From: Rhizobium sp. Q54
GTDB lineage: Bacteria > Pseudomonadota > Alphaproteobacteria > Rhizobiales > Xanthobacteraceae
NCBI GenBank assembly: GCA_945861895.1
Contig: CAMAWF010000022.1
Coordinates: 1 to 42,145, forward strand
Length of the DNA: 42,145 bases
Direction: 5' to 3'
Shown here: positions 36,413-41,442 of the stretch, piece after piece
Position numbering within the stretch: position 1 is the stretch's first letter
Layout: each line of letters begins with the position of its first letter
Translations under genes and position numbers: made by a program
The notes under the pieces: generated by a model
What the model was told of the DNA's origin: nothing
Databases searched by the model: none
Seen by the model: the letters and a program-made list of their open reading frames with translations, nothing else

Positions 36413-39220
36413 TCAGGTCGCGGCCGCTTCCTTCGCCAATCTGGGTTCGGCTTTCGCGGGCGCAAACAGCGCGATCAACGCGCGTTTGATGGCGGCTTGC
36501 CGCGTCGGCGAGGTGATCTGCGCGCCCATCAGATCGGTGACGTAAAACACGTCGACGACGCGTTCGCCGAACGTGGCGACATGGGCGGAAGCGATGTTGA
36601 GGTTGAGTTTCGACAGCGTCGCGGTCAATTCGTAGAGCAATCCGGTGCGGTCGAGCCCGGTGACCTCGACCATGGTGTAGCGGTGGGACCACTGGTTGTT
36701 GATCGCGACCGAGGGCTCGACCGCGAAAGCCTTCAGGCGGCTTTTCGAGGCCGAGCGCTTCGCCACCACCTCGGGCAGCCGCAAAGTGCCGCGCAGCGCC
36801 TTCTCGATCGAGTCGGCGATGCGCGCGGCGCGGCGCGCCTCGTCGTCGTCGAGATCGAACTCGCGCGAGACTGCGATGGTGTCGAGCGCAAGTCCGTCGG
36901 TGGTGGTGTAGATCTGCGCATCGACGATGTTGGCGCCCGCCATCGCACAAGCCCCGGCGATGATCGAGAGCAGCCAGGGATGATCCGGCGCCAGCACGGT
37001 GAGTTCGGTTACGCCGCGCGCGGCGTCGAATCCGACCGCGGTTGAGAGCGTCTTGCCGGATTGTTCGGCCGCGCGGACAAAGTGTGCGTGCTGGAGCTTG
37101 CGCGGCAGATCGACCTTGAGCCAGTAGGCCGGGTAGAGCCGCGCGGCATAGGCTGCAAGCGTCTCGCCCGGCCAATCCTTGAGCGCCTCCTTGAACTCGG
37201 CCTGCGCCATCGCCACGCGCTGCGCGCGATTGACCTCGGAGAAGCCGCCCGTGAGCACCGGCTCGGTCTCGTAATAAAGCGTACGCAATAGTTGCGCCTT
37301 CCAGCCGTTCCACACGCCGGGGCCGACCGCGCGGATGTCGGCGGTGGTCAGAATCGTGAGCAGCTTGAGCCGGTCGAGCGATTGCACCAAAGCTGCAAAG
37401 TTCTCGATGGTCTTGCGGTCGGAGAGATCGCGCGACTGCGCCACGCTCGACATCACCAGATGCTGCTCGATCAGCCAGGCGACGGTGTCGGTCTCGCCGG
37501 GGGAAAATCCGAAACGCGGGCAGAAGCGGCGGGCAATGCGCGCGCCGGCAATCGAATGATCCTCGATCTGGCCTTTGGCGATGTCGTGCAGGAACATCGC
37601 GACGTAAAGAATATTGCGCTGGCTCGGCGATATTTTTCCCATCAATTCGGTGGCGAGCGGAAATTCGTCGTGCCGGCCGCTCTCGATTTCCGCCAGCACG
37701 CCGATGCAACGCAACAGATGCTCGTCCACGGTGTAGTGGTGATACAGGTTGAACTGCATCATCGCGACGACATGCCCGAATGCGGGCACGAATTTTCCCA
37801 GGACGCCGGCCTCGTTCATCCGCCGCAGCACGGTTTCCGGATCGTTCTTCGAGGTCAGAATGTCGAGGAACAGCCGGTTGGCTTCCTCATGCTTGCGCAA
37901 ATCGGCGTCGACCAGCTTGAGCGAACGCGTGATCGCGCGCATGGCGTCGGGGTGGAACGCCAGATTGTGCTTCTGCGCGAGATGAAAGACGCGGATCAGG
38001 TTGACCGGGTCGCGACGGAAGACATCCGCGCGGGCAATGTTGATGCGGTTGTTGTCGACGACAAAATCGCTGGTCTCGGCGAGCGCGCGCTTGCGCGCCG
38101 GGCGAAACTTCGCCATCACGCGGCTGAGCACCGGCACGCTCTTGGCCTGGCGGTCTTCCAGCTCGGCGCACAGGATGGCGGTGAGGTCGCCGACGTCCTT
38201 GGCGACCAGAAAATAATGCTTCATGAAGCGTTCGACGTCCTGCTGGCCGGGATGCTCGGTATAGCCAAGCCGCACCGCGATCTCGCGCTGGATATCGAAC
38301 GACAGCCGCTCCTCGGCGCGGCCGGTGACGAAATGCATGTGGCAGCGCACCGCCCAGAGAAAATCCTCGCAGCGGCGGAATAATTTATATTCCTGCCGGT
38401 CGAACACGCCGCGCTTGATCAACTCGTCGGGCTCGCGCACGCGATAGACATATTTTGCGATCCAGAACAAAGTATGCAGGTCGCGCAGGCCGCCTTTGCC
38501 GTCTTTGACGTTGGGCTCGACCAGATAGCGCGACTGGCCGGCGCGGCGGTGGCGTTCCTCGCGCTCGGCGAGCTTGGCGGCGACGAATTCGCTCGCGCTG
38601 CCCTGCGTCACCTGCTTGTCGAATCGCGTCACCAATTCGTCGAACAGTTTGCGGTCGCCGAGCAGAAACCGCGCCTCCAGGATCGCGGTGCGGATGGTCA
38701 TGTCGGCCTTGGCCTGGCGGATGCATTCGTCGACCGAACGGGTGGCGTGGCCGACCTTGAGCCCGGTGTCCCACAGGCAATAGAGGATCGCCTCGGCGAT
38801 CGATTCTCCCCAGGCGGTCTGCTTGTAGGGCAGCAGAAACAGCAGATCGATGTCGGAGTCGGGCGCCTGTAGCCCGCGGCCGTAGCCGCCGGTGGCGACC
38901 ACCGCCATGTGCTCGGCCTGGGAAGGATTTTGCGACGGATACAAATGCTTGCAGGCGAATTCGAAAACGACGCGGATGATCTCGTCTTCCATGCGGCACA
39001 GCCGCTCGGCGCAGCGGCGGCCGTGACGATCCTTGAGCAGCAATTGCTCGGCTTTGGCGCGCCCGCCGGCGAGCGCCGCCTTGAGCTGCTGTGCCACCGC
39101 CGCACGCAGCTCGCGCTGGTTGCCGGAATGCCGCGCGGCGAGTTTCTCCAACTCGGCGGCGACCGCGCGCATGTCGATCAGTTCCGTGGCGGGGCGGGCG
39201 GCGTGATCGGCGGCAGGCAT
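36413..39220 (-). CDS. glnD: PII uridylyltransferase/uridylyl-removing enzyme
   Basis: The product has 935 residues. It uridylylates and deuridylylates PII proteins in response to glutamine. The nucleotidyltransferase motif GGYGRGLQAPDSDIDLLF is at about 110-128, the HD motif is HDIAKGQIEDH at about 510, and two C-terminal ACT domains begin near LAPDHPWLLSIIAG and VTGLDRTGLLYELTA. Length and domain order are normal for alphaproteobacteria. I chose ATG 39220; a GTG at 39256 is also in frame and neither has a strong ribosome binding site. Confidence 0.96.
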   Translation of the reverse strand: MPAADHAARPATELIDMRAVAAELEKLAARHSGNQRELRAAVAQQLKAALAGGRAKAEQLLLKDRHGRRCAERLCRMEDEIIRVVFEFACKHLYPSQNPSQAEHMAVVATGGYGRGLQAPDSDIDLLFLLPYKQTAWGESIAEAILYCLWDTGLKVGHATRSVDECIRQAKADMTIRTAILEARFLLGDRKLFDELVTRFDKQVTQGSASEFVAAKLAEREERHRRAGQSRYLVEPNVKDGKGGLRDLHTLFWIAKYVYRVREPDELIKRGVFDRQEYKLFRRCEDFLWAVRCHMHFVTGRAEERLSFDIQREIAVRLGYTEHPGQQDVERFMKHYFLVAKDVGDLTAILCAELEDRQAKSVPVLSRVMAKFRPARKRALAETSDFVVDNNRINIARADVFRRDPVNLIRVFHLAQKHNLAFHPDAMRAITRSLKLVDADLRKHEEANRLFLDILTSKNDPETVLRRMNEAGVLGKFVPAFGHVVAMMQFNLYHHYTVDEHLLRCIGVLAEIESGRHDEFPLATELMGKISPSQRNILYVAMFLHDIAKGQIEDHSIAGARIARRFCPRFGFSPGETDTVAWLIEQHLVMSSVAQSRDLSDRKTIENFAALVQSLDRLKLLTILTTADIRAVGPGVWNGWKAQLLRTLYYETEPVLTGGFSEVNRAQRVAMAQAEFKEALKDWPGETLAAYAARLYPAYWLKVDLPRKLQHAHFVRAAEQSGKTLSTAVGFDAARGVTELTVLAPDHPWLLSIIAGACAMAGANIVDAQIYTTTDGLALDTIAVSREFDLDDDEARRAARIADSIEKALRGTLRLPEVVAKRSASKSRLKAFAVEPSVAINNQWSHRYTMVEVTGLDRTGLLYELTATLSKLNLNIASAHVATFGERVVDVFYVTDLMGAQITSPTRQAAIKRALIALFAPAKAEPRLAKEAAAT

Positions 39221-39348
39221 ATGGCATCCGATAGCGGAGCCGCACCGTTGTGTCACCGCCGGCGGGTGAGGAAAACGCCGGAACCGGCATTTGGCCGGTT
39301 ACAGAAAGAAATTTTCTAAAACGAGGAATAAAAGATTATATTATGCGT

Positions 39349-39377
39349 TTGACCGGCCATGATTGCCATCTTATAGA
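39349..39377 (+). promoter_or_regulatory. Sigma70-type promoter of the ABC importer operon
   Basis: TTGACC (39349-39354), exactly 17 nt, and TATAGA (39372-39377) make a good promoter. The predicted start site, about 39383-39385, falls just before the SAM-II aptamer at 39386, as expected for a riboswitch-bearing transcript. Confidence 0.8.
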
Positions 39378-39385
39378 ATAATCAT

Positions 39386-39438
39386 AGCGCCGATTTGAGC
39401 TTGCAGCTTGCGGGCGCTTAAAAAATGCAGCTAAAGCG
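39386..39438 (+). ncRNA. SAM-II (metA) riboswitch
   Basis: The sequence matches the SAM-II aptamer in order and spacing. Stem P1 is AGCGCC (39386-39391) with GGCGCT (39413-39418). The conserved loop start GATTTGAG follows P1, then GCTTGCAGC. After P1 comes TTAAAAAA and then the conserved GCTAAAG (39430-39436). The H-type pseudoknot can form: AGC and TGCA in the loop (39398-39400 and 39402-39405) pair with TGCAGCT (39426-39432), leaving one bulged base. SAM-II binds S-adenosylmethionine and turns down sulfur/methionine genes in alphaproteobacteria. A good promoter lies just upstream. The start codon of the downstream gene is about 115 nt away, which is far for this class. Confidence 0.85.
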
Positions 39439-39552
39439 TGGGGTCTGTCCCCCTCGCAAGGCTGATGGCGGGCCGCAAAAACCCGTCCCCATCAACACGG
39501 TTTTCGCGCGCGCAAGAACGCGAAACAGCCGTCAAAGCGTGTGGAGTAAAAC
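39439..39552 (+). other. Leader between the riboswitch and the ABC binding-protein gene
   Basis: This 114-nt stretch has GGGG-TCTGT-CCCC (39440-39452), then GTTTTCGCG and CGCGAAAC (about 39499-39528), which can form hairpins, and a GGAG ribosome binding site at 39542-39545. A GTG at 39438 opens a frame that overlaps the main gene out of frame; there is no evidence that it is translated. None of the hairpins has a following T-tract. Confidence 0.5.
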
Positions 39553-40530
39553 ATGAGCTTGTTTTCCCGACGTTCGCTGCTGGCGTCCGCGCTGCTTGTC
39601 GGCCTGACGCCGAGCGCAACCTTGTTTGCCGCCGACAATCCGAAAGAAATCCGCATCGATTGGGCGACCTACAATCCGGTCTCCATGCTGCTCAAGGAGA
39701 AGGGCCTGCTGGAAAAGGAATTCGCCAAAGATGGAATCTCCGTCCGCTGGGTGCAGTCGCTCGGCTCCAACAAGGCGCTGGAATTCCTCAACGCCTCCTC
39801 GATCGATTTCGGCTCGACAGCCGGTTCCGCGGCACTGGTCGCCAAGATCAACGGCAACCCGATCAAGGCGATCTATGTCTATTCGCGGCCCGAATGGACT
39901 GCGCTCGTCACCGGCAAGGATTCCAAGATTGCCAAGATCGCCGACCTCAAGGGCAAGCGCGTGGCGGTGACGCGCGGCACCGATCCGCACATCTTCCTGG
40001 TGCGCGCGCTGCAAAGCGTGGGCCTGACCGAAAAAGACATCACGCCGGTGCTGCTCCAGCATCCCGACGGCAAGACCGCGCTCATTCGCGGCGACGTCGA
40101 TGCCTGGGCCGGCCTCGATCCGATGATGGCGGCGGCCGAGGTGCAGGACGGCGCCAGGCTGTTCTATCGCGACAAGCAGGCCAACACCTGGGGCATCCTC
40201 AATGTGCGCGAGGCGTTCCTCAAGGATCATCCCGAATTGGTCAAGCGCGTGCTCGCGGTCTACGAAGAGGCGCGCAAATATTCGCTGAGCCATTACGAGG
40301 AAGAAAAGCGCGTGTTCATCGCCGTCACCAAGCTGCCCGAGGCGGTGGCCGACAAGCAGCTGAAAGAACGCACCGAGTTGACGCATAGCCGCATCGGCGC
40401 AGCGCAACGCGAGTCGATCCTGCAGGCCGGTCTTGCCTTGCAGCAGGCCGGCGTGATCGCCGCCGATGTCAATGTCAAAAAAGTGCTCGACGATCTCATC
40501 GACGACCGCTTCGTGGCGGTGACGCACTAG
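39553..40530 (+). CDS. ABC importer substrate-binding protein (SsuA/TauA/NrtA-like), SAM-II controlled
   Basis: The product has 325 residues. An export signal of about 26 residues contains FSRRSLLAS, which resembles a Tat motif. The mature chain begins ADNPKEIRIDWATYNPVSML and contains GSTAGSAALVA, DLKGKRVAVTRGTDPHIFL and DAWAGLDPMMAAAE, the pattern of the sulfonate/taurine/nitrate binding-protein family. GGAG precedes ATG 39553. The SAM-II riboswitch upstream suggests that the ligand is a sulfur source or methionine precursor rather than nitrate. Permease and ATPase genes follow. Confidence 0.9.
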   Translation: MSLFSRRSLLASALLVGLTPSATLFAADNPKEIRIDWATYNPVSMLLKEKGLLEKEFAKDGISVRWVQSLGSNKALEFLNASSIDFGSTAGSAALVAKINGNPIKAIYVYSRPEWTALVTGKDSKIAKIADLKGKRVAVTRGTDPHIFLVRALQSVGLTEKDITPVLLQHPDGKTALIRGDVDAWAGLDPMMAAAEVQDGARLFYRDKQANTWGILNVREAFLKDHPELVKRVLAVYEEARKYSLSHYEEEKRVFIAVTKLPEAVADKQLKERTELTHSRIGAAQRESILQAGLALQQAGVIAADVNVKKVLDDLIDDRFVAVTH

Positions 40531-40593: not shown

Positions 40594-41442
40594 ATGTCCA
40601 TTGTCGAAATGACCGTCGCCGCCCAAGCCCGCACGGCGGATAGGCCAACGCAGGGCAAGCGCTTGGTGCGTCATGCGCGGCCGGCGCTCGGACTGCTGCT
40701 TCCCGTCAGCCTCGCGGTGGCCTGGGAAATCGCGGTGCGTATTGGAATCTCCGACGGGCGTCTGGTGCCGCCGCCGTCGGTCATTTTCGCCACCTTCGCC
40801 GATCTCGCGCGCACCGGCGAATTGCAGCGCCATGCGCTCGCCACGCTCGCGCGCGTTGCCGCCGGTTTCGGCATCGGCGTTGCGATCGGCACGCTCGCCG
40901 GCGCAATCACCGGCTATTCGGTCTTCATCCACCGCCTGCTCGATCCGAGCTTGCAGGCGTTGCGCGCGATTCCCTCGATCGCCTGGGTGCCGCTGTTTAT
41001 CCTTTGGCTCGGAATTTTCGAGGCCTCGAAAGTCACGCTGATCGCGGTCGGCGTGTTCTTTCCGGTCTATCTCGGCGTCATGGGCGCGGTGATGTCGGTG
41101 GACCGCAAGATCGTCGAGGTCGGGCGCGCGTTCCGTCTTTCCGGCGCCGCCATGGTGCGGCGGATTTTGCTGCCCGCGGTGCTGCCGGCCTATGTCATCG
41201 CGCTGCGCTCGGGCTTGGGGCTGGGCTGGATGTTCGTCGTCGCCGCGGAATTCATGGGCGCCTCCGAGGGCCTCGGCTATCTGCTGGTCGATGGCCAGCA
41301 GCTCGGCAAGCCGGCGCAGATCGTTGCCGCGATCGTTGCGTTTGCCGTGATCGGCAAGACCACCGACTGGATGATTGCCGCGGCGGCGGCGCCGTTGCTG
41401 CGCTGGGAAGATCGCTTCAGCGCGCAAGGCGAGGAGAGCTGA
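40594..41442 (+). CDS. ABC importer permease (SsuC/TauC-like)
   Basis: The product has 282 residues with about six hydrophobic segments. The cytoplasmic loop has SLQALRAIPSIAWVPLFI and later MGASEGLGYLLVDGQQ, the SsuC/TauC/NrtB signature. The start is uncertain: ATG 40594 gives the family-like N-terminus, but the frame is open from 40534 and ATG 40537 or 40609 are possible. It lies about 60 nt after the binding-protein stop and ends 2 nt before the ATPase start. Confidence 0.9.
   Translation: MSIVEMTVAAQARTADRPTQGKRLVRHARPALGLLLPVSLAVAWEIAVRIGISDGRLVPPPSVIFATFADLARTGELQRHALATLARVAAGFGIGVAIGTLAGAITGYSVFIHRLLDPSLQALRAIPSIAWVPLFILWLGIFEASKVTLIAVGVFFPVYLGVMGAVMSVDRKIVEVGRAFRLSGAAMVRRILLPAVLPAYVIALRSGLGLGWMFVVAAEFMGASEGLGYLLVDGQQLGKPAQIVAAIVAFAVIGKTTDWMIAAAAAPLLRWEDRFSAQGEES

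Follow-up and report, generated by a model that had tools for sequence, protein, structure and literature searches.

SAM-II riboswitches are known mainly from genes that make methionine. As targets of SAM_alpha, the main text of PMC4239095 gives metY, hom, metA, metX, metC, and metW. The window analyzed here (the whole 42,145 nucleotides of contig CAMAWF010000022.1 from Rhizobium sp. Q54, with features on the forward strand unless stated otherwise) carries a motif of this class ahead of genes for an ABC importer of the SsuABC type, which raises the question of whether this is a real SAM-II element and what it could tell us about the importer. Our preferred answer, to which we give a probability of roughly 80%, is that it belongs to a distinct "ssu" subclass of SAM-II riboswitches, located in the 5' leader of the ssuA-ssuC-ssuB importer operon and acting as a translational SAM OFF switch in methionine or organosulfur supply. 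With SAM plentiful, the pseudoknot would form and the importer would be turned down; with SAM scarce, the importer would be made. The OFF direction is expected by analogy with known SAM-II riboswitches. Translation would be controlled through a CCUCC-containing segment that follows the aptamer and hides the Shine-Dalgarno (SD) sequence, and the imported compound would feed methionine or organosulfur supply.

The aptamer and its pocket

The window was queried with cmscan, and a match to the Rfam SAM-II model (RF00521, SAM_alpha) was obtained at 39377-39454 with 38.2 bits (E 3.2e-5), above the gathering score of 36. Within the whole genome (G000; 3.77 Mb, 99.77% complete) the E value of this aptamer is 6.8e-7, and the one other RF00521 match at E <= 1 scores 81.2 bits and lies upstream of metZ. 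No match to SAM-V (RF01826) was found in the window. The motifs that the first-pass annotation had named are all in place: the 5' strand of P1 (AGCGCC, 39386-39391), the L1 loop with the pocket nucleotides U10-U12 of 2QWY (GATTTGA, 39392-39398), the 5' strand of P2b (TTGC, 39408-39411), the 3' strand of P1 (GGCGCT, 39413-39418, placed by sequence and leader alignment), and the 3' strand of P2b (GCTAA) together with the A47 equivalent (GCTAAA, 39430-39435). The pseudoknot proposed along with them (TGCA with TGCA plus AGC with GCT) is not that of the solved SAM-II, for which a passage of PMC3764141 gives a pocket helix of UUGC with GC(U)AA; that helix is present here. From the end of the aptamer core (39438) to the ssuA ATG there are 114 nt. 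A promoter-like pair, TTGACC...TAGAAT (39349..39379), ends 6 nt 5' of P1, and a pair in this place, just 5' of P1, is described for SAM-II in a passage of PMC1273637. The window pair was not among the results of a consensus scan with spacers of 16-18 nt. The stability of the window leader is ordinary (z -1.04).

Pocket nucleotides of 2QWY listed in PMC3764141 include U10-12, U20, U21, G22, C23, G42, C43, U44, and A45-47. All the SAM-contacting nucleotides listed there are present in the window aptamer, which suggests that the window RNA binds SAM. They are also kept in all 47 ssu copies recovered from related genomes, except for the A47 equivalent (A in 46, C in G210), an invariance that is partly by construction since the 47 were selected by a pattern that fixes most core positions (GATTT, TTGC, and GCTAA). 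Across the 17 genera represented among these core-pattern-selected copies, the spacer bases drift and the pocket sequence is constant. Both the conserved loop sequence and the target are peculiar to the subclass, as might be expected if the pocket had been re-tuned to another ligand such as SAH, methionine, or the imported compound. However, neither the window nor the aligned copies show a change in any listed SAM contact, apart from A47 in a single copy, and we find such a change of ligand hardly plausible.

The sequence of P1 differs from group to group, being AGCGCC/GGCGCT in the ssu copies (as in the window), CGTGGT/GCCACG in copies ahead of met genes, and CCGCGG/CCGCGT in a further group. 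Several pair types occur at each of its six positions between subclasses (counted among matches retained for at least five of the six pairs), and P1 is therefore supported by paired changes between groups. Inside the ssu subclass, by contrast with this, the helices are almost invariant among the 44 aligned leaders (alignment A2, from which G071, G076, and G210 were excluded), so that covariation is uninformative there: P2b is paired in 44/44 and does not vary at all, and two pairs of P2a hold in 95.5% of cells and show no paired changes. The ssu P2a appears short beside that of the met copies, which together with different flanks may explain the low Rfam scores of the subclass. The RF00521 cut-off is passed by four of 11 ssu copies in the genus (window included) and by 9/19 ssu-class loci submitted to cmscan; many copies of the subclass are thus missed by it. 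With R1, a covariance model made from 36 orthologous ssu-leader elements, the window copy, itself one of the 36 training elements, scores 84.1 bits.

Distribution of the aptamer ahead of ssuA

A search of 43 genomes of the genus with RF00521 separated a strong group (63.9-85.6 bits) from weaker matches. The strong matches that were read precede metZ or metX, as judged by resemblance. Eleven weaker matches (27.7-44.1 bits), namely the window and ten others that were all confirmed, lie upstream of ssuA-ssuC-ssuB orthologues, and one match of 27.8 bits in G216 falls in the same score range without being upstream of them. SsuA is present in 22 of the 43 genomes; half of the ssuA leaders (11/22) carry the aptamer, and the other 11 are short and have none. 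The promoter-like pattern occurs in all 11 aptamer-bearing leaders and in five of the 11 aptamer-free ones, the remaining six having TTTTGAC or TTTGAC with a different second hexamer. Orthologous loci are marked by the divergent neighbor glnD (36413..39256, reverse strand; NF003467, 1494.9 bits against a cut-off of 959), which adjoins ssuA in 9/10 loci of the genus and 89/102 other loci of the family.

Of 248 family genomes searched at a threshold of 1e-100, 130 have SsuA. It is present in 120 family genomes outside the genus, and 102 of these were read, giving with the 22 in the genus a total of 124 orthologous loci. The aptamer lies within 300 nt of the ssuA start codon in 47 of the 124, distributed over 17 genera. 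It is carried by all loci read in g38 (8), g12 (7), g9 (4), g13 (3), and g11 (2), by part of them in g1 (11/22), g3 (2/10), and g10 (1/5), and by the one locus in each of nine further genera. The core-pattern search found none in g25 (0/8), g26 (0/9), g27, g29, g40, and g24 (0/5 each), among others. The 77 orthologues without aptamer, which include the eight read in g25, count against our preferred reading. As the selection pattern fixes GATTT, TTGC, and GCTAA, R1 was used as a check on these 77 loci (233,755 bases), where it detected no altered copy of the aptamer. Its best matches were two half elements (L193, 25.5 bits, and L198, 14 bits), and three further matches of 12-14 bits were at chance level. 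Among 80 named loci retained, R1 recovered 23 elements (72-88 bits) directly ahead of the ssuA match, partly from genomes already counted. The linkage of aptamer and ssuA, which the first-pass annotation had proposed to look for upstream of related binding-protein genes, is therefore conserved and not a one-off. Chance is a poor explanation for 47/124 loci with the aptamer when the other 77 hold just half elements or chance-level matches. The covariance model, the pocket sequence, and the linkage in 17 genera and two other families together bear out the earlier claim of a SAM-II-type aptamer ahead of an SsuA/C/B-type importer, and as far as sequence can tell the window element is confirmed as a real one.

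On the SsuA tree (FastTree only; g1_G223 was too short and was removed, and three sequences from other families were included) the aptamer state changes at least 13 times, 10 of these changes being forced by starred branches. The two half elements (L193:1134-1156 and L198:1109-1136, both on the reverse strand) lie upstream of ssuA on the ssuA strand; they are apparently riboswitches in decay and point to loss of the aptamer. Losses of this kind, the 11/22 genus orthologues without aptamer, the C at the A47 position in G210, and the gap in Rfam score between ssu and met copies would all fit an aptamer that has decayed or does not bind SAM and is retained by shared descent. Yet the pocket stays constant while the spacers drift over 17 genera (in copies picked by core pattern), the R1 scan gave no altered copy among the aptamer-free loci, and the short P2a and different flanks can account for the low scores. 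We consider a decayed aptamer quite improbable. Near relatives with and without the aptamer make its gain, loss, and function testable.

Outside the family, R1 matched at seven places (65-77 bits) in 397 genomes of the order. In G633, G622, and G560 the element is followed by SsuA (61-69% identity), and the aptamer precedes ssuA in two other families, f42 and f35. In G562, and at the second place in G622, what follows the element is a degenerate ABC ATPase, and in G647 the locus stops at the contig edge. Compared with Rfam, L225 alone among the outside-family loci L223, L225, L226, and L227 is above the cut-off. Weaker R1 matches in the order, where read, lie upstream of metZ, metX, metA, MetN-like and MetQ-like genes, and some unsettled genes.

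Several further elements were observed in these searches. G622 has two SAM-II aptamers (L251:3480 and 6255), before and after the ssuACB genes. The second lies ahead of an ABC ATPase-like gene that is degenerate and of an OsmC gene; for G562 (L253:3638), only this second type of position was seen. In G594, from another family, a 65-bit element (L260:3629, reverse-strand numbering) has no ssu or met gene recognized behind it, and a nearby frame of 118 aa has no Pfam or NCBIfam match. Sub-threshold SAM-II matches with an intact core at L073:4001-4075 (reverse strand, 22.9 bits) and L072:2958-3031 (forward strand, 27.8 bits) lie upstream of a conserved frame of about 70 aa without Pfam match, near a second ssu-like cluster; L073 also has a sulfate-assimilation-type GTPase, named by eye, nearby.

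The expression platform

In the ssu leaders the aptamer is followed first by hairpin H2 and then by a conserved AGCTG and hairpin H3; after these comes a CCTCCAT segment, the complement of the ATGGAGG ribosome site. The corresponding parts of the window are H2 (GCG.GGGG/CCCC.CGC, 39436..39457) and GCTG with H3 (GATGG CGGG / CCCG..CCATC, 39461..39493), both placed by folding and alignment, followed by the SD sequence GTGGAG (39541..39546). The 3' arm of H3 is the anti-SD segment in the class, and in the window it has a degenerate form, TCCCCAT (39486-39492). Over the 44 aligned leaders, 87.2% of H2 cells are paired, and one pair shows paired changes.

Many known SAM-II leaders have putative terminators according to a passage of PMC1273637, and the ssu switch could likewise terminate transcription, like the switches of methionine genes. 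Indeed, all 28 met-gene SAM-II leaders tested in the genus have a stem with T5 or more behind it. These are 28 of the 30 strong loci L001 and L033-L061, with L046 and L060 left out for being near contig ends; the gene was identified by family scan in L001 and read as metX or metZ by resemblance in the rest. In contrast, none of the 47 ssu leaders has such a stem, and no terminator was found in the window leader. A laxer scan, limited to short loops, returned 4/47 ssu leaders and 4/28 met leaders, and because it recovers so few of the latter the stem-plus-T5 scan is the better test. Termination was rejected for the ssu subclass on the 0/47 count, and we regard a terminating switch at this locus as improbable.

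The sequences downstream of the aptamer favor translational control instead. A 7-nt complement of the SD sequence (G-U allowed) occurs in 24/44 ssu leaders (G071, G076, and G017 excluded from the 47) versus 223/2200 base shuffles, with the reservation that the 24 are not independent because the leaders are related. In 21 of the 24 it coincides with the conserved CCUCCAU-type segment. The two partners have changed together in G003 (TTGGAGG/CCTCCAA), and G204 and G226, which have lost the usual anti-SD segment, have an altered ribosome site whose complement lies in H2. Given the excess over shuffled sequences, control in the ssu leaders is probably translational, and it may proceed by hiding of the SD sequence. 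In the window itself, where the anti-SD segment is degenerate, the longest complement is a run of 6 located elsewhere. Two-state folding with the aptamer region blocked, a crude method, gave no clear switch: the SD sequence was more closed in the "bound" state in 31/47 leaders and more open in 16/47, with a mean openness of 0.14 free and 0.11 bound. An anti-aptamer pairing of CAGCU with AGCUG, paired in 94.2% of cells without paired changes, is a possibility.

The importer and its known counterparts

The operon begins with a substrate-binding protein of 325 aa (39553..40530), which scores 232.9 bits with the SsuA_fam model TIGR01728 against a cut-off of 163.5 and is far below the cut-offs of the narrower SsuA, TauA, and SaoX models. 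It is followed by an SsuC-type permease (40594..41442; PF00528, best NCBIfam model SsuC with 171.2 against a cut-off of 347) and an SsuB-type ATPase cut by the contig end (41445..42145; PF00005, best NCBIfam model SsuB with 223.2 against 395). In relatives, an OsmC-like gene lies downstream in 10 of the 11 loci read that hold the ssu operon or a remnant of it, preceded in five of them by a zinc alcohol dehydrogenase-like gene. It was read downstream of ssuB in L251, L252, L254-L259, L263, and L264, with Pfam run on L251 and L264; our own contig of 42145 bases ends in ssuB, and the OsmC context comes from these relatives.

An ordinary alkanesulfonate importer that is merely under SAM control is quite possible, although we do not favor it. 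On the one hand, the SsuA_fam cut-off is passed and the nearest solved folds to the AlphaFold model of the binding protein (pLDDT 86.6) are SsuA proteins (3ksx, TM 0.80 by query, 0.90 by target). On the other hand, Xanthomonas citri SsuA binds the sulfonate through the side chains of Gln36 and Ser141, as described in a passage of PMC3839906, and in their place stand Ala38 (125/126) and Asp144 (126/126), an equivalence based on sequence alignment; in the AlphaFold model a helix starts with Asp144. TauA, according to a passage of PMC6906117, relies on the side chain of Gln30 and on main-chain groups, Thr132 among them. SsuD, the desulfonating enzyme searched for, is over cut-off in just 2/47 aptamer-bearing genomes, and in the genome of Rhizobium sp. 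Q54 (99.77% complete) there is none over cut-off, with one partial match of 138.9 bits against 518.2. Of the "sulfonate-like" class given in the first-pass annotation, the family assignment holds, whereas these replacements and the scarcity of SsuD make "sulfonate importer" a doubtful label.

SsuD over cut-off (2/47 aptamer-bearing versus 32/77 aptamer-free ssuA genomes; Fisher 2.3e-6) and MetQ (3/47 versus 32/77; Fisher 1.1e-5) are both rarer where the aptamer is present, presuming that the SsuA, MetQ, and SsuD searches covered the same 248 family genomes, for which the totals agree. When independent pairs on the tree are compared, neither the lack of MetQ nor that of SsuD goes significantly with the aptamer, and a clade effect may lie behind both counts. 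No MetQ-type protein (PF03180) was found in our genome at 1e-20. One tentative reading, less likely than not, is that the operon encodes an unrecognized importer of methionine or a methionine precursor, not of sulfonate, under a translational SAM-II switch with its own platform in lineages mostly without a MetQ-type importer. A candidate substrate would then be an amino- or sulfonium-bearing organosulfur compound, suiting the Asp at the old sulfonate site. More broadly, the retention of a SAM switch in many relatives points to a part for the importer in the supply of sulfur or methionine, and the supply role put forward in the first-pass annotation is strengthened as an inference; the substrate need not be a sulfonate.

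In the open-licence PMC literature we found no report of SAM-II with an ssu-type or sulfonate importer as target, and the main texts of PMC4239095 and PMC3766115 contain neither "sulfonate" nor "ssu". With this operon, SAM-II control would extend from methionine synthesis to import, and the riboswitch offers a handle on the SsuA-like importer beside glnD, whose product should tie to the SAM or methionine pool.

Compared with MetNIQ, the importer has an unrelated binding protein (PF09084, as opposed to PF03180), but elsewhere in the order SAM-II-like elements also precede MetN-like or MetQ-like genes. This group, mostly with a P1 of CGCGG/CCGCG type and with the motif at about 1508 on the match strand, comprises L229, L233, and L239, which are below the Rfam cut-off and whose genes were assigned in a family scan with MetN and MetQ as the best models, under their cut-offs, and L234, L235, and L249, assigned by resemblance. 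SAM-V of SAR11 (targets osmC, bhmT, mmuM, and metY) belongs to another Rfam family, RF01826, but resembles the ssu switch in the translational control proposed for the latter and in the OsmC-like gene that follows the importer in relatives; PMC5069961 describes, in the passages concerned, SAM-V hiding the ribosome-binding site with osmC as a target, and a tandem arrangement of SAM-II and SAM-V in SAR11. A similar tandem was seen in a 1.0-Mb genome of the order, where at L236:1393-1457 (reverse strand) a SAM-V match adjoins a SAM-II match upstream of a homocysteine-methyltransferase-like gene named by eye. The SsuABC alkanesulfonate importer shares the gene set, fold, and SsuA_fam score, but here its sulfonate side-chain ligands are replaced and SsuD over cut-off is missing from the genome. 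Finally, the ssu subclass resembles SAM-II of the metX type (RF00521; 2QWY) in P1, the GATTTG loop, the UUGC x GC(U)AA pocket helix, and the promoter-like pair just upstream, and differs in that P2a is short, P1 and the loop have sequences of their own, a terminator is lacking, and the target is an importer. It is, in sum, SAM-II control with a new target and a new expression platform in a known riboswitch class.
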